DNA of 64,000 bases. Source: an uncultured Granulosicoccaceae bacterium. GTDB taxonomy: Bacteria > Pseudomonadota > Gammaproteobacteria > Granulosicoccales > Granulosicoccaceae. Location: NCBI GenBank assembly GCA_937998875.1, contig CALLBO010000030.1, positions 1-64,000 of the forward strand, read 5' to 3'. Positions 9,254 through 19,351 of this stretch are shown in pieces. The first letter of the stretch is position 1. The number at the start of each line of letters is the position of its first letter. The notes under the pieces are model-generated. The model was not told where the DNA came from. It saw nothing but the letters and a program-made list of their open reading frames with translations, and did not search any database. Both the position numbers and the translations under genes were made by a program.

Positions 9254-10852
9254 TTAGCACCGGCCTAATACTCTTCTGCCCAAGCCTGCTAACAACAGCA
9301 GCAATACCGTTAGAAGCGTCGCACCACCTCCGCCACTATCTGAGGTTTCAGCATCACTCAATTCATCGTTAAACAACAGAGATTTACCGTTACCCGATTC
9401 TTCAGCATCTGTCGCGATGCGGAAGTTATCGAAATAGGCATACTGATCCGATGAGGGAGCCCAGGAGGAATCATTGCCTCCATAGAACGTACTGAAGTAA
9501 AACAAATTTATACCAATATTGGCGGTTTTGCGGAACATAAACCTGTTATCGCTGAAGACTTTTTTCCCATCCAGCCAGGCTTCAAGAATACCGTCGGCAA
9601 CCCCGGGTGTATTCAACACGACTCTGTGCTGAACTCTGTGCCAGGTACCCGCCCGAGCTCTAACACCCCAGAATTCGTCATCACCATAAAAGTTTGATTG
9701 ATCGGCATGGTATACGTAGTTCTCCAGCCTTCCACCTTCCCGCCACATACCGCGGGCACTCCATCCATCAAATCCATCTGGAAATCCACCGCCGGTGTTA
9801 CAACCGCTGGTTGGTGACAGAGTGTTATCGTAACCACACAATCCAGGTAGCTTTCCCCCTCTAACGAAGTCAAAACCTTTTGAAAACTTCATATCATAGG
9901 CAAGGTAGAGCTCTTCATAACTTTTGGGCAACGTAACACCGAACCCTACATCGGAGAGAAAAGCAGCTGCGCCTGTAGCACCATACTTATTTGCCGGGTA
10001 AGTCACCCGCAGGGCTCTGCCGCGGTCTGAGTCAGCGACAATATTCACTCTTCCTTGCGCAAATCCCAAATGCCAAAACGGTGTTTGCCAGTCGATATTC
10101 AACTGTCTGGACCCATATGAACCCACGGGCGCTGTTTCAAAATCCTGTTCGAACACCACCCCTTTAAATTCTTTTTGAGCTACGTATTCACAAATCTGAT
10201 TGTTTTGAAACCCCCAACCATCACCGTCGGTATCTTTTACGCCGTTGAAACACACGGGATATTTTGATGCGGCAGTTATCCTGCAGGACTTTTCCTTTTC
10301 ATAACCCCAGCCATCCGCATTATCATCTGAAGCCCGGTATTCACAGGCCGGATGATTTGTATTCGCCACACTGGAGGTAGATGTTGCTGCTACCTTACAG
10401 GACGCGTCGTTTTCCCATCCCCAGCCATCTCCATCGCTGTCTGACGCACTGAATTTGCACACCCGTGTGTCTTTGCTAATCACTACTGCCATACGACAGG
10501 ACGCGCCATTCTCCCATCCCCAACCATCTCCGTCTCTATCCGTGTATGTTTTCTTACAAACGGGATGCCCGGCAACAATTGCTACCTTACAACTCGCGCC
10601 GTTCTCCCAGCCCCAGCCGTCTCCATCGCTGTCATAGTCGGCACTGGAGCAGGTCGGTCTTTGCCTGGCTGCGTGCGCTGTAGTTGCATCATCCGCAAAC
10701 AACGGTATATCCGCAGACTGGCACACTTTACCCTCGGGTTGTGGCCACTCCTCATTACTGTCGTACGCACAAGGAACTTCAACAGCGCCTAATGATCCGG
10801 AAGCGAGAAACACCAGCGCTATAAAACTCAACCAGAAGCTTTTCTTTTTCAT
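9254..10852 (-). CDS. secreted polysaccharide lyase 14-like protein with CBM10-like repeats and GlyGly-CTERM tail
   Basis: 532-residue exported protein. Residues 1-22 are a signal peptide (MKKKSFWLSFIALVFLASGS). Residues 68-221 hold five repeats, each with two Cys exactly 20 residues apart (68/88, 99/119, 132/152, 170/190, 201/221). Most read D-x-DGDGWGWENxxSC, like carbohydrate-binding module family 10 with a DxDGDG acidic loop added. Residues about 233-482 resemble polysaccharide lyase family 14: GGKLPGL, RGMWREGG, WHRVQHRVVLNTPG, ADGILEAWLDGK and FSTFYGGNDSSW. The C-terminus (about 505-532) is Ser-Asp, a GGGG run, a hydrophobic helix and an Arg-rich end, matching GlyGly-CTERM sorting tails. 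I infer an extracellular lyase, possibly on alginate or related uronans. The substrate is not proven, and similarity was judged by eye. Confidence 0.8.
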   Translation of the reverse strand: MKKKSFWLSFIALVFLASGSLGAVEVPCAYDSNEEWPQPEGKVCQSADIPLFADDATTAHAARQRPTCSSADYDSDGDGWGWENGASCKVAIVAGHPVCKKTYTDRDGDGWGWENGASCRMAVVISKDTRVCKFSASDSDGDGWGWENDASCKVAATSTSSVANTNHPACEYRASDDNADGWGYEKEKSCRITAASKYPVCFNGVKDTDGDGWGFQNNQICEYVAQKEFKGVVFEQDFETAPVGSYGSRQLNIDWQTPFWHLGFAQGRVNIVADSDRGRALRVTYPANKYGATGAAAFLSDVGFGVTLPKSYEELYLAYDMKFSKGFDFVRGGKLPGLCGYDNTLSPTSGCNTGGGFPDGFDGWSARGMWREGGRLENYVYHADQSNFYGDDEFWGVRARAGTWHRVQHRVVLNTPGVADGILEAWLDGKKVFSDNRFMFRKTANIGINLFYFSTFYGGNDSSWAPSSDQYAYFDNFRIATDAEESGNGKSLLFNDELSDAETSDSGGGGATLLTVLLLLLAGLGRRVLGRC

Positions 10853-14602: not shown

Positions 14603-15152
14603 GTGTAAGCCGACAACCAGTGTGGTGAATTATAGACTTGTACGACACCTGCAATCGCAACTAATTTGCGCTACGATTTCGCGAAATCACTTAATTGTCT
14701 GTAGCGAGCCTTGTTTGGAAGCCGAAAGGCAACAACAGAAAGCACAAATACCGACCAAGCCTCAACAGCTGATTTGCATACAGGCTGTACTGAACTTGCT
14801 TTTTGCCAGGTGGCTGTCGTGGGGCTCTACATTTCCTACTGTCTTCGGCCTACACCGGCTTTGTCACGCTTTAAACGCTCAAAACGCCGCTGGATGAGGG
14901 CTCATTACCCACCAGCGGCGTGTACGATATTTGTTGCCTTGCCAAAAAGTGAAAGTCGATGAAAGTTCTGTATCTGACGAGCAAGTCTGAATAATCAGCC
15001 GTAATAGCTGCCTCGAAATCAGTTCAATAGTTGCGTATTGAGCGCCAAATTATTGGTTTTTCCGCTGAAATAATGAGTTTTACGAACTAGACTCAAGTGA
15101 TGTTACAGATCCACTAAGGATTTTGATGGACCAAAACCGGGAGTAACATCGC
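14603..15152. other. 550-bp gap without a convincing gene
   Basis: Region between the divergent mnmG and GGDEF genes. Short open frames on the plus strand (14595-14897 and 14711-14962) have no recognisable motif and look spurious. The only structured element I see is the hairpin at 14884-14921. Promoters for both flanking genes should lie here, but no clear pair of hexamers stood out. Confidence 0.6.
14884..14921. repeat. 10-bp inverted repeat hairpin in intergenic DNA
   Basis: ACGCCGCTGG (14884-14893) and CCAGCGGCGT (14912-14921) form a perfect 10-bp stem. The 18-nt loop itself contains GGG and CCC that can pair. No U-tract follows. It may be an intergenic REP-like element, a terminator of a short transcript, or part of a small RNA. 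I did not see a second copy in this window. Confidence 0.5.
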
Positions 15153-16109
15153 TTGAGCACAGAATGCGTGGCAACGCTGACTACGATTGACGCCCGTAGT
15201 ACACCCAGGGTGATCGAAACGATTTCGGATCACACCTCGGCCTTTGGTAATGACAGCAATTTTGAAAAATTGCTCTATCAGCATTTGGATATTGAAGCGC
15301 TGGTGCACGAGTTTGCGCAATGCCTTTATCGCCGCTTTTCTATCTGCAGAATGGAGTTCAGTCTGCCAGAACTGGAAATAGAAGTAGACCTGCGAAGGCA
15401 CAACGAAGATCAGAACCCGTATCCAAATCGCAATTCAGAAGCCAATCCGCAATCAGAAGACTATCTCGGAAAACTACAGTACAACATGGACCATAGCCGC
15501 AAGCCGCTCGGCAAGCTGACCATACTGCGCTCTTCAGCATTCTCGGTATTTGAAAAATACCTTATCGAAGGCACTGTAGCAGATCTATGCGGTCCGCTTT
15601 ACAACTCCCTGCGCTATGCACATGCCTGTCGTTCGGCATACCGTGATGCACTGACGGGACTGTACAACCGGGCAGCACTTGAAGCTTTGTTATTTGATGG
15701 ATCAGTAGATAAAAATCGCAGCACTTCGACAGTAATGGTATGTGACATGGATCGATTCAAATGGATAAACGATCACTATGGACATACCGTCGGCGATCAG
15801 GCACTCACGCGGTTCGCAACTTCTCTCAGCACAATTGTCAACCACGTTGGTAGCGTATTTCGCTATGGTGGAGATGAGTTTGTCGTTGCACTTGACTCAG
15901 TCGCTCAACGCAGAAGTGTTCAACTCGCAGAAGCTATACGAAGCACAGCCGAGAGCTGTTTACTGGATGACGGCACTCCACTCACTACAACCATTGGCGC
16001 TACTAAAGTGCTGGGCGGTGAATGCCTGAGAGATGCTTTCTCAAGAGCAGACACGGCGTTGCTTGCGGGAAAAAGCAGTGGAAGTAACACAGTAGTGTGG
16101 TACGAATAA
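15153..16109 (+). CDS. GGDEF-domain protein (probable diguanylate cyclase)
   Basis: 318 residues. The C-terminal half (about 160-316) is a GGDEF domain with the intact active site RYGGDEF (GGDEF at 239-243) and the substrate motif DALTGLYNR at about 166-174, so it probably makes cyclic di-GMP. The inhibitory RxxD site is lost: NHVG stands where it is expected. The N-terminal 150 residues are not a domain I recognise, and there is no signal peptide or membrane helix, so it is cytoplasmic. The start is TTG at 15153 after a GGGAG; an upstream ATG at 15126 is closed by a stop within seven codons. Confidence 0.88.
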   Translation: MSTECVATLTTIDARSTPRVIETISDHTSAFGNDSNFEKLLYQHLDIEALVHEFAQCLYRRFSICRMEFSLPELEIEVDLRRHNEDQNPYPNRNSEANPQSEDYLGKLQYNMDHSRKPLGKLTILRSSAFSVFEKYLIEGTVADLCGPLYNSLRYAHACRSAYRDALTGLYNRAALEALLFDGSVDKNRSTSTVMVCDMDRFKWINDHYGHTVGDQALTRFATSLSTIVNHVGSVFRYGGDEFVVALDSVAQRRSVQLAEAIRSTAESCLLDDGTPLTTTIGATKVLGGECLRDAFSRADTALLAGKSSGSNTVVWYE

Positions 16110-16235
16110 ACAACACTTGTACACGGTTGCTGCTATCGAACTTGCAAAACCCTACATAGATCAGTTCATTTTGCGGATGCCACACGGGTTTGTCTGTGTA
16201 ATCATCAATTTTATTTCAAAATTACAAGACGAAAC

Positions 16236-17504
16236 ATGAACAAGAGTGAAGTCGCACGTGCTCTTAAGGAAATGGCAAACCTGCTGGAAATACTGGAGGC
16301 CAGTCGTTTTGAATTTTCTGCCTTCCGCAATGCAGCCAGCGCCGTGGAAGACTTGTCCGACGACCTGGATCAAACCGTTAACAACGGAAATATCACCGAC
16401 ATTCCAGGAATTGGGAAAGGCACAGGTCAATTCATCACCGAAATGGTTCTCAACGGCAGCGCTGCTGACCTCGATAATATTCGCCAGCAGGTGCCGGCAG
16501 GTATTCCAACCCTTCTTCGTTTCCGAGGTCTCGGGCCAAAGAAAGTAAAGCTACTCTGGCAGCAACTCGGTATAACAGCAATAGACGATCTCGAAAAAGC
16601 GATTGACGAGGGTGAAGTCGCAAAATTAAAAGGCTTTGGGCCGACATCAATAGAAAGCCTCAAAAGCAGTGTCGACTATTTTAGAGCTGAGTCTCCGGAT
16701 AAGTCTCAGCATAAAAGCTTAACGGGTCAGGCCTCTGCTGCTTCAACAGGCGAAACCGCAACTGAGTCACAACCAACAAAAGAGGTCATAAAATCCACCG
16801 GGAAAATTCTGGCTGGCACATCCGGTTACAGCTATCCGAAGTGGAAAGGCAGTTTTTACCCTGATAACGCCAAAACTGCAGAACTTCTAAAACACTACGC
16901 TACCGACCTTCACACGGTTGAAATCAACAATACTTTTTACCGCTTTCCCTCGGAAAAAGTAGTAGCACAATGGAAAGCACAGACTTCAGCCGGGTTTCAA
17001 TTTTCACTCAAAGCGCATCGCAGAATAACCCATCAGATGCGCTTAAACGAAAACTCAATGATACGGGTGCAGGAATTTGTCGAACGTTGCAGCATTCTTG
17101 GCAACCGGCTTGGTTGCATACTTTTTCAGTTACCACCGGATTTTGCCCAGGATGATTCACGCTTGCAGAATCTTCTCAGTTCACTGCCACAAGGTCCGCG
17201 CTTTGCGGTCGAGTTCAGGCATGCTAGCTGGCATACGGATGAGATTTACGATCAACTCGCGCTACACAATATTGCCTGCGTCTGTGGTGATTCCGAGACA
17301 AACAAGCCGAAAGAAATCGCAACCGCTGACTTTATTTATGCAAGGCTCCGAAAAACCGGGTACACGAAAAGCGAACTAAAAAAATGGAATCTGTTTTTTG
17401 CCAAACAACAAAAACAGGAAAAAGATGTACTGGTTTATTTGAAGCACGATGACACAGGTGACGCGCCAAATACGATTAAAGAACTCTGGCGAGCCAGCAC
17501 CTGA
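16236..17504 (+). CDS. fusion of PolX-like helix-hairpin-helix domain with DUF72 (YecE-like) domain
   Basis: 422 residues with two parts. Residues 1-150 look like the N-terminal helix-hairpin-helix region of bacterial/archaeal family X DNA polymerases. They include FSAFRNAASAVEDL, then three HhH motifs at about 55-61 (IPGIGKG), 97-103 (RGLGPKK) and 131-136 (LKGFGP). A 35-residue Ser/Thr/Gln-rich linker follows. Residues 190-422 are a complete DUF72 domain: LAGTSGYSYPKWKGSFYP, VEINNTFYRFP, FSLKAHRRITH, LFQLPP and VEFRHASW. DUF72 has a TIM-barrel fold of unknown activity. No polymerase or PHP domain is present. I infer a DNA- or RNA-binding DUF72 protein; the activity is unknown. It lies 126 bp after the GGDEF gene. 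Confidence 0.85.
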   Translation: MNKSEVARALKEMANLLEILEASRFEFSAFRNAASAVEDLSDDLDQTVNNGNITDIPGIGKGTGQFITEMVLNGSAADLDNIRQQVPAGIPTLLRFRGLGPKKVKLLWQQLGITAIDDLEKAIDEGEVAKLKGFGPTSIESLKSSVDYFRAESPDKSQHKSLTGQASAASTGETATESQPTKEVIKSTGKILAGTSGYSYPKWKGSFYPDNAKTAELLKHYATDLHTVEINNTFYRFPSEKVVAQWKAQTSAGFQFSLKAHRRITHQMRLNENSMIRVQEFVERCSILGNRLGCILFQLPPDFAQDDSRLQNLLSSLPQGPRFAVEFRHASWHTDEIYDQLALHNIACVCGDSETNKPKEIATADFIYARLRKTGYTKSELKKWNLFFAKQQKQEKDVLVYLKHDDTGDAPNTIKELWRAST

Positions 17505-17527
17505 ACTGCAACCGACTTAGCGCCGCT

Positions 17528-18199
17528 TTAAAATCGATAACCAACGCCCAGAGACATTGTCAGGGATTGATAATCGACTTCAGTCACCGCACCATTGCCA
17601 GTTTCCTCACTCAATTCCAGACCGTGCTGTGTTGAATAACGTATTTCTCCAGTCAGATAAAACTGCTCTGACAGATCGTAGTCAGCGCCGGCCATCAGCT
17701 GATAGCCTATTGATCCGGAATCGGAAAAAGATCGCTCCCCAGATGTGTTTTCGCTATCCAGATCGACTTCCTGCGTCCAAAGCAGTCCAACGCCTAACCA
17801 GGGTGTGATTGGCTGTGATTCAACCAGGCGGTAACGACCATTCAGGTAAAAGATATTGCTCGCGTAGTTACCACCAGGGAGCCGGGAACCATCCTCGGCG
17901 GTGATCGTTGCATCATTTGATCGATACTCCCAACCAAACTCCGATATCCAACGCGAATCGTCGTAATGAACCCTGGCCGACAGGCCGGCAACGAATCCAC
18001 CTTCCAGCGATAGATCAGCATCGCCACCCAACCCTCCTCCAAGACCAACAAGATTCAGTGATTGATCTTGCATAAGGCTTAACCCGGTATACGGCACAAT
18101 AGACCAGTCGTTGGCTTTCGCTACAGTGGTTGTAGCAGCGGTTAACAGGATCGCGCAACAAGAGAGATATTGAGGTTTCACAATTTGTACCTTTGCCAA
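17528..18199 (-). CDS. outer-membrane beta-barrel protein
   Basis: 223 residues. An N-terminal signal peptide ends at about residue 29 (TAATTTVAKA then NDWSIVPYTG). The rest is alternating polar/hydrophobic strands rich in Gly, Tyr and Trp, ending in GVGYRF, the terminal Phe typical of barrels folded by BAM. Its size fits an eight-stranded OmpA/OmpW-like barrel. The ligand or role is unknown. It converges with the HhH-DUF72 gene and diverges from the LytTR regulator 131 bp away. Confidence 0.82.
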   Translation of the reverse strand: MAKVQIVKPQYLSCCAILLTAATTTVAKANDWSIVPYTGLSLMQDQSLNLVGLGGGLGGDADLSLEGGFVAGLSARVHYDDSRWISEFGWEYRSNDATITAEDGSRLPGGNYASNIFYLNGRYRLVESQPITPWLGVGLLWTQEVDLDSENTSGERSFSDSGSIGYQLMAGADYDLSEQFYLTGEIRYSTQHGLELSEETGNGAVTEVDYQSLTMSLGVGYRF

Positions 18200-18330
18200 G
18201 AGTGAGTGTTATTTCATCGAACAGTTACTCTGGCTGTTGAGTACCAAAGATTCCAGCACAAATACACCAGCGGTAAGACTGATACACCAATGGTTCTCCT
18301 GGTGCGTTCACAAGTTCTTCATGCCCGTTT

Positions 18331-19305
18331 ATGCAACCTTCCCGGAGGTACACAATCGGCAGACAGATGCTCGACGCTCGATGCCACGGCAGCTTACGAT
18401 CCAATAGAACCATTCTCGATGTTATTTCTGTGTTGCAGCTGATTGGCATCATCGGCACCCTGCTGGTGGTTTTTTTTACCGTAATAAAGCCCGAGGCCAG
18501 CAATGGCCTTACACTATTTTCGAGGCTCACTTTCTGGGCGCTTCATGTAGGCCTGGGACTCCTGGCTCTGTTGCTCGCCAGTACATGGTTTAAATACGGA
18601 ACATGGCTTCCGGACACTAAGCTCGCCTCGATAACGATTACCGGATGCGCAGCGGCAATCGTGTCAACGCCGGGATACATCGCACTCGATTCTGTATTTG
18701 CGTCGAGCATCATTGATCTGGATCCAGACACTCCTGCAGACAATCCGGCGATTGCTGTGATAGCGGAATTTTTCGAGCTGTTACCGTTGTTTCTGATCAC
18801 CTGGCTGCTCATCAATCTTCCGCTTTTCACAGGCAATTCCAAAACTGATAACGCGGCCGCTGATTCTGGTAGCAAGAAAGCATTAGATGCCCCCGAACAC
18901 AAACCCGATTGTGACCAGTTAGTCCGGCGTCCAGAACGACAGTCTGGCCAGCCGTTCACTGAAAAAACCGGTTTCCTTAACAGTCTTCCCGGTTTTATCG
19001 GCACAGAGATAATCGCTGTTTCGAGCGACCTTCACTACCTTAACGTTTGGACTGAACAGGGGCGTGCAACAGTACTCGGAAATCTGCGTGATGCTGTAAG
19101 TGAACTTGGTGACACGGGTATGCAAATTCACCGATCCCACTGGGTAGCCAGTAAACATGTCACAAGAGTGGTAGGCAACTCAAACAAGGGCGCTTGCCTG
19201 CTCTCCAACGATCTCCGCATCCCGATTAGCCGTCGACGATGGAAAAAAGTCCAGCAATACTATGGTCGAGGAGTACTTGGCGGGTCAGCCCATTCAGGCA
19301 CCTGA
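18331..19305 (+). CDS. membrane-anchored LytTR-family transcriptional regulator
   Basis: 324 residues. About four transmembrane helices lie between residues 30 and 165 (for example VISVLQLIGIIGTLLVVFF and FFELLPLFLITWLLINLPLF). A polar linker of about 55 residues follows, then a C-terminal LytTR DNA-binding domain (about 225-316). Visible motifs in that domain are IIAVSSDLHYLNVWTEQG, QIHRSHWVASKHV and LLSNDLRIPISRRRWKKVQQ. It has no receiver domain, so it may sense through the membrane part directly (inference). The start is uncertain, because an ATG at 18367 would also give the full membrane region. Its divergent position suggests it may control the barrel gene at 17528-18199. Confidence 0.85.
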   Translation: MQPSRRYTIGRQMLDARCHGSLRSNRTILDVISVLQLIGIIGTLLVVFFTVIKPEASNGLTLFSRLTFWALHVGLGLLALLLASTWFKYGTWLPDTKLASITITGCAAAIVSTPGYIALDSVFASSIIDLDPDTPADNPAIAVIAEFFELLPLFLITWLLINLPLFTGNSKTDNAAADSGSKKALDAPEHKPDCDQLVRRPERQSGQPFTEKTGFLNSLPGFIGTEIIAVSSDLHYLNVWTEQGRATVLGNLRDAVSELGDTGMQIHRSHWVASKHVTRVVGNSNKGACLLSNDLRIPISRRRWKKVQQYYGRGVLGGSAHSGT

Positions 19306-19351
19306 AAAACCGCTTATTGATCTCCTACTTCGCAAGCAGTTACAACTGATA

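Follow-up and report, generated by a model that had tools for sequence, protein, structure and literature searches.

What might a protein do that carries the helix-hairpin-helix (HhH) region of a family X DNA polymerase (PolX) in front of a DUF72 domain, in one chain? DUF72/YecE proteins are found across bacteria and archaea, and their structures have been solved since 2004; no demonstrated activity was found for them in the literature. The gene that raises the question lies in a stretch of 64,000 nucleotides from an uncultured Granulosicoccaceae bacterium, here called the window, and has the following parts:

16236..17504, + strand: HhH-DUF72 fusion gene, open from the ATG at 16236 to the stop at 17504, 422 aa
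16236..16457, + strand: HHH_8 / 8-kDa-like PolX part, residues 1-74, with the first HhH, IPGIGKG, at residues 56-62 (Pfam; PDB 2w9m, 3b0x, Pol beta)
16509..16664, + strand: HHH_5, residues 92-143, with the second HhH, FRGLGPKK, and the third hairpin, LKGFGP (Pfam; helices in the AlphaFold2 model)
16701..16799, + strand: flexible linker, about residues 156-188, rich in Ser, Thr and Gln (low pLDDT over residues 151-180; alignment gaps)
16803..17489, + strand: DUF72 TIM barrel, residues 190-418 (Pfam; AlphaFold2 of the domain alone; Foldseek to 1vpq)

Architecture, recurrence and setting of the fusion gene

The initial annotation of this gene had assigned residues 1-150 to a PolX-type HhH region, and both profile and structure searches bear this out: Pfam places HHH_8 on residues 1-74 (E=5.9e-14; 52.6 bits, cut-off 30) and HHH_5 on residues 92-143 (E=8.8e-8; 33 bits, cut-off 27), the NCBIfam PolX model PRK08609 covers no more than residues 1-151 (E=1.3e-29, under its full-length cut-off), and residues 2-152 align in the PDB with 2w9m (E 1e-21) and 3b0x (E 3e-19), which are PolX from Deinococcus radiodurans and from Thermus thermophilus, the solved relatives of the front half. 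The full barrel that it had read in the C-terminal half is likewise present, DUF72 being matched on residues 208-418 over profile positions 1-215 of 217 (E=4.5e-59; 200.6 bits against a gathering cut-off of 25.3), with TM1631 (1vpq) aligning to residues 191-372 (E 7e-19); the Pfam check that it had proposed for each half is significant for both. Polymerase palm/thumb and PHP domains, which it had called absent, give zero Pfam match in the 422-residue protein. AlphaFold2 models the chain as two confident domains, a helical HhH module and a barrel, joined by a disordered linker (pLDDT below 50 over residues 156-175); in this full-protein model the HhH half rests on few alignment rows, and the DUF72 half was re-predicted alone.

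A second HhH-DUF72 fusion, of 406 residues (P0002), occurs in the Granulosicoccaceae MAG G006 (CALISD010000019.1; loci L002/L048). It aligns with the first over the whole length at 59-60% identity, with a shorter linker and with both halves significant in Pfam, and it occupies a different locus, between a glutamine-amidotransferase-like gene and a gene that by eye is Sir2-like. In nucleotides the two copies diverge chiefly at third codon positions (0.66 and 0.64 in the two halves; 0.21-0.31 at positions 1-2), which shows purifying selection on both halves. That the fusion is an assembly artefact, or a chance joining devoid of function, could be argued from its having only two known carriers; against this stand two independent MAGs, two loci, an alignment that runs through the linker and selection on both halves, which rule out the artefact and leave the reading as a whole with a negligible probability. 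The fusion is a real gene, as had been argued from its continuous frame and its Ser/Thr/Gln-rich linker.

The architecture is rare. It is carried by two of the 48 genomes of the order, both species of one genus, and was not found in the other 12 species of the genus searched or in the rest of the order; the recurrence in related genomes that had been anticipated is thus borne out narrowly, by one sister species. No further fusion was found in scans of the class, the phylum and a second order (about a thousand other Pseudomonadota genomes), one contig scan being queried with two HhH peptides, which distant fusions could escape, nor in the plasmids, phages and viral contigs searched. A Streptomyces plasmid match that seemed to span both halves (H24) proved to be noise around a frame-broken DUF72.

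The fusion gene lies in the spacer between mnmG and mnmE, with these neighbours:

14603..19351, no strand: mnmG-mnmE spacer, variable cargo site holding the fusion (comparison of relatives)
15153..16109, + strand: GGDEF protein, upstream neighbour, ending about 126 bp before the fusion (Pfam GGDEF, E=2.4e-31)
17528..18199, - strand: convergent outer-membrane beta-barrel protein (Pfam OMP_b-brl)
18331..19305, + strand: LytTR DNA-binding protein (Pfam LytTR)

This spacer is a variable cargo site in the genus (window and L186-L191) and holds different cargo, or none, in the relatives G004, G005, G006, G007, G010 and G012, so the fusion is an accessory gene and its neighbours carry little information; an operon of the fusion with the window neighbours was rejected on the same ground, the cargo differing in each relative. 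The upstream GGDEF gene, which is also present in G004 without the fusion, is probably unrelated to it; in G004 this gene shows up as two separate frames. No repair gene stands beside either fusion gene, the neighbours in the window being the GGDEF, outer-membrane and LytTR genes, mnmG and mnmE. SOS control was rejected, there being zero LexA-type boxes upstream of the fusion, and so was a role in anti-phage defence, with zero PADLOC matches. Elsewhere in the window, 9254-10852 on the - strand encodes a secreted-looking protein with repeated Cys-x-DxDGDGWGWENxxSC units, and similar repeats occur in L060:1187-2713.

The host genome (G000; 5.2 Mb in 121 contigs, 92% complete) and 13 other genomes of the genus gave no Ku and no PolX thumb domain (DNA_pol_B_thumb) in family-level searches. 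In its own organism, then, the fusion does not serve a Ku-LigD system, and it may work by itself alongside the usual repair proteins. Despite lacking Ku, this genome encodes two ATP-dependent DNA ligase domains (G000:C24:70471-70935 and G000:C108:2099-2617).

The HhH half and the DUF72 pocket

Like bacterial PolX (HhH/8-kDa, polymerase and PHP), the fusion begins with a tandem HhH of about 150 residues, and it retains both HhH hairpins and the third, C-terminal one; Foldseek matches this half to PolX and Pol beta. Unlike PolX, it has DUF72 in place of the polymerase and PHP domains and has lost the equivalent of the dRP-lyase lysine:

16431..16433, + strand: codon of F66, aligned with Lys72 of Pol beta, the dRP-lyase lysine (alignment)

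The alignment column, which we equate with Pol beta Lys72 by motif and from knowledge of Pol beta, holds K in all six PolX rows, F66 in the 422-residue fusion and L in the second fusion, and K is also missing from the HhH-only proteins. With this lysine lost, only DNA binding, and not the 8-kDa lyase chemistry, should transfer from Pol beta. PolX-type HhH regions bind the DNA backbone, and holding gapped, nicked or ended DNA is their established behaviour; the HhH half of the fusion would therefore be expected to bind DNA.

The same combination of HHH_8 and HHH_5 is found in stand-alone HhH proteins that have no DUF72 in the chain (L054, of 159 residues; L056-L061; L063/L099). A small tree places the fused HhH with L054, from genome G237 (support 94/98), apart from PolX and from the HhH proteins of 176 residues in its own family. 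Genome G237 also encodes L055, a DUF72 of the clade sister to the fusion's, and thus has both components in unfused form. The HhH proteins of Granulosicoccaceae relatives (L056-L061) measure 166-179 residues, and this kind was undetected in both fusion-carrying genomes. Larger ones, of 305-307 residues (L099:6704-7621 and L063:1609-2532, both on the - strand), share a conserved C-terminal part some 120 residues long, for which Pfam gave no match in L099, the protein tested. PolX-like HhH proteins with PHP and no polymerase have been described mainly from Actinobacteria (PMC12926913); they resemble the fusion in joining a PolX HhH to one barrel enzyme, and differ in that the barrel of the fusion is DUF72, which lacks the PHP metal motif.

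The DUF72 domain, predicted alone with AlphaFold2 (pLDDT 95.7, pTM 0.92), has the TIM-barrel fold of the solved members TM1631 (1vpq) and EF0366 (1vpy/1ztv) of PF01904, with a TM-score of 0.84 to 1vpq in Foldseek. It is complete and shares their predicted pocket; the solved members are single-domain proteins, whereas the fusion adds the HhH in front and is of a subfamily in which R372 and H404 replace His and Asn. Two groups of positions in the domain bear on its function:

codons within 16821..17345, + strand: pocket residues S196, E229, N231, K259, Q298, E326, F327, R328 and R370 (alignment to 1vpq; site list of PMC3828134; conservation)
17349..17447, + strand: subfamily-diagnostic residues R372, K403 and H404 (alignment of DUF72 rows)

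Konc and colleagues predicted a DNA/phosphate site in Tm1631 formed by Ser7, Glu42, Leu43, Asn44, Lys72, Gln114, Glu143, Phe144, Arg145, Leu176, Arg191, Trp199, Glu205, Arg207 and Asn239 (PMC3828134). Ten of these 15 positions were mapped in a phmmer alignment to 1vpq, whose chain number is the paper's number plus 12: S196, E229, N231, K259, Q298, E326, F327, R328 and R370 correspond to Ser7, Glu42, Asn44, Lys72, Gln114, Glu143, Phe144, Arg145 and Arg191 and are all identical, and Leu43 is replaced by I230. E229, K259, Q298, E326, R328 and R370 are moreover invariant in 53 DUF72 sequences of the short type (defined below). By this conservation the DUF72 half looks catalytically intact.

Its structural neighbours outside DUF72 are generic TIM barrels (aldolase, epimerase, synthase); AP endonuclease family 2 (3ngf) appears only at rank 41 (TM 0.57), UVDE is absent from the 50 matches listed, and the His-rich metal site of endonuclease IV or PHP is missing. 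The lack of a canonical metal site, together with the absence of metals from 1vpq, 1vpy and 1ztv according to PMC3828134, would also suit an inert scaffold or a DNA-lesion sensor, with which the protein would shield or bridge ends and cut nothing; this is quite improbable, since conservation of nine pocket residues, mostly polar or charged, across distant members is typical of catalysis. With an invariant Lys, two Glu and two Arg, and no endonuclease IV-like metal site in the barrel, the pocket would suit a lyase or phosphodiester reaction at a blocked or abasic end. A role in DNA repair has been proposed before for this family: DNA binding and candidacy for repair were predicted for Tm1631 from its structure (PMC3828134, PMC4939058), and simulations by one group propose Mg2+-dependent phosphodiester cleavage (PMC4939058), a computational proposal.

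Repair genes around short-type DUF72 genes

A careful tree of DUF72 makes the two fusions sister to 26 stand-alone DUF72s, in a clade of 28 rows with support 100/99. R372 and H404 are present in all 26 of these and replaced by H and N in all 25 other short-type rows; K403, also common to the fusions and the sister clade, is mostly Asp elsewhere. Seventeen of the 26 adjoin Ku and/or LigD, several of the remainder being on short contigs or near contig ends; the rows are not independent, 11 of the 26 coming from one family, and the linkage is seen in six of the ten families. A wider search in another order added 19 DUF72s that are close to the fused one, 14 of them beside Ku and/or LigD, which together with L055, L064 and L066 makes 17. 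The common gene order, on one strand, is DUF72, a MerR/TPR protein, Ku and LigD (L066:4954-10429, by Pfam); the neighbourhood recurs in L055, L064 and L234-L243, and most of L234-L242 have the same spacing. Lying between DUF72 and Ku, the MerR/TPR gene (checked with Pfam in L066, by eye in L055) seems to be a dedicated component of such NHEJ loci. The nearest DUF72 relatives of the fusion are thus embedded in Ku-LigD loci, and its own DUF72 is sister to theirs, whereas the fusion gene itself lies outside such a locus, in a genome that lacks Ku.

Linkage to repair genes extends to other DUF72s of the short type, which align over the whole domain of the fusion; it does not extend to the long type, which aligns over part of it and which the tree separates almost cleanly. 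The surroundings of 71 short-type and 39 long-type genes were screened for the markers PolX, Ku, LigD, Fpg and RtcB. In six loci, each of a different family (L051, L052, L053, L100, L106 and L193), PolX lies less than 500 bp from a short-type DUF72, on the same strand in five of the six and in several with overlapping frames; L051 is a PolX-Fpg cluster. L051-L053 were first chosen for a noticed adjacency, yet all fall within the score range used. In L099, an HhH-only gene overlaps the short-type DUF72 gene that follows it. The survey placed Ku/LigD near short-type genes in L055, L064, L066, L116 and L120, whereas none of the 39 long-type genes adjoins any marker (PolX, HhH, Ku, LigD, Fpg or RtcB). 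Since 32 of the 39 long-type genomes encode Ku, the missing linkage is not due to missing Ku and the control is fair. The two types differ with a Fisher p of 0.008 for PolX, HhH, Ku and LigD, and of 0.0005 with RtcB added, in tests that ignore kinship. In 20 genomes with both a short-type DUF72 and PolX (each at E<=1e-20), three pairs lie within 2 kb, against 0.03 expected. Many short-type DUF72s have no repair neighbour. The DUF72s on rhizobial plasmids have mostly unrelated neighbours, and one of them sits two genes from an ATP-dependent DNA ligase.

These neighbourhoods bear on two further readings. DUF72 could be a metabolic TIM-barrel enzyme for a sugar or nucleotide phosphate, its repair neighbours and the fusion reflecting stress regulons and not a shared substrate; the aldolase, epimerase and synthase barrels found by Foldseek agree with this, and the invariant Lys and Arg would also suit a phosphorylated small molecule. 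Such an enzyme is rather unlikely, given that DUF72 is linked specifically, repeatedly and independently to Ku, LigD, PolX and an HhH protein, that the long type lacks this linkage, and that there is a physical fusion. Alternatively, DUF72 could act on RNA, or on RNA and DNA, for example in RNA-end processing with the RtcB ligase, the HhH bringing it to RNA or RNA-DNA hybrids. RtcB in fact adjoins six short-type loci (L053, L095, L100, L111, L194 and L210); in L100 the order is RtcB-DUF72-PolX, with the genes touching, and L053 also holds a putative archease gene. The clade closest to the fusion adjoins Ku/LigD, however, and not RtcB, and an HhH of the PolX kind is by established knowledge a binder of the DNA backbone, so that an RNA substrate is unlikely.

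In the published record, DUF72 has been noted near polB2 (PMC11791011) and PolX next to LigD (PMC9226535); no mention of a DUF72-Ku-LigD operon, a DUF72-PolX operon or an HhH-DUF72 protein was found in the literature searched, chiefly openly accessible papers.

A candidate factor for broken or gapped DNA

The fusion itself, its recurrence, the selection on it, the conservation of the pocket, the membership in a DUF72 clade and the linkage of that domain to repair genes were computed here. Taken with them, the fusion is probably, though with moderate confidence, a DNA-repair factor for broken or gapped DNA, in which the HhH provides targeting and DUF72 catalysis. The initial annotation had suggested recognition of DNA ends or gaps coupled to an enzyme step, and this role is partly supported: it gains independent support from the Ku-LigD neighbourhoods of the nearest DUF72s and from the other short-type DUF72s beside PolX, whereas the lyase chemistry of Pol beta should not be carried over, the HhH half having no Lys72 equivalent. 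The weakest link of the reading is that the genome and its genus have neither Ku nor a PolX thumb domain; the fusion genes' lack of repair neighbours and of a LexA-type box also weighs against it, as do the missing metal site and generic barrel matches of DUF72, the many short-type DUF72s away from repair genes, the RtcB loci and the share of one family in the sister clade.

In such a factor the N-terminal tandem HhH, descended from the 8-kDa/HhH region of PolX and closest to HhH-only proteins, would grip the backbone at a nick, gap or end, and the flexible linker would let the C-terminal barrel reach the nearby strand. In the pocket, Lys259, which is invariant and sits where a barrel strand ends, would be joined by Glu229, Glu326 and Gln298, and Arg328 and Arg370 would act as phosphate binders. 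DUF72 would process the end as a nuclease, phosphodiesterase or lyase, clearing abasic residues or damaged termini so that filling and ligation can follow. The exact chemistry is speculative, and so is a Schiff base on Lys259 (AP/dRP lyase), the activity for which the HhH half no longer has the usual lysine. A more tentative extension, possible but doubtful, is that DUF72 serves bacterial end joining and gap repair as an unrecognised metal-independent enzyme that cleans DNA ends through Lys259 (as an AP/dRP lyase or phosphodiesterase). Ku-LigD or PolX would recruit it in trans and the fused PolX HhH in cis; the fusion would then represent minimal end processing in bacteria that have neither Ku nor PolX.

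Together, the HhH fusion and the subfamily-specific operons with Ku, LigD and PolX narrow the substrate of DUF72 to DNA ends or gaps. They offer concrete proteins, residues and substrates with which the function of a widespread domain becomes directly testable and, if confirmed, would give bacterial end joining and base excision repair one more enzyme.
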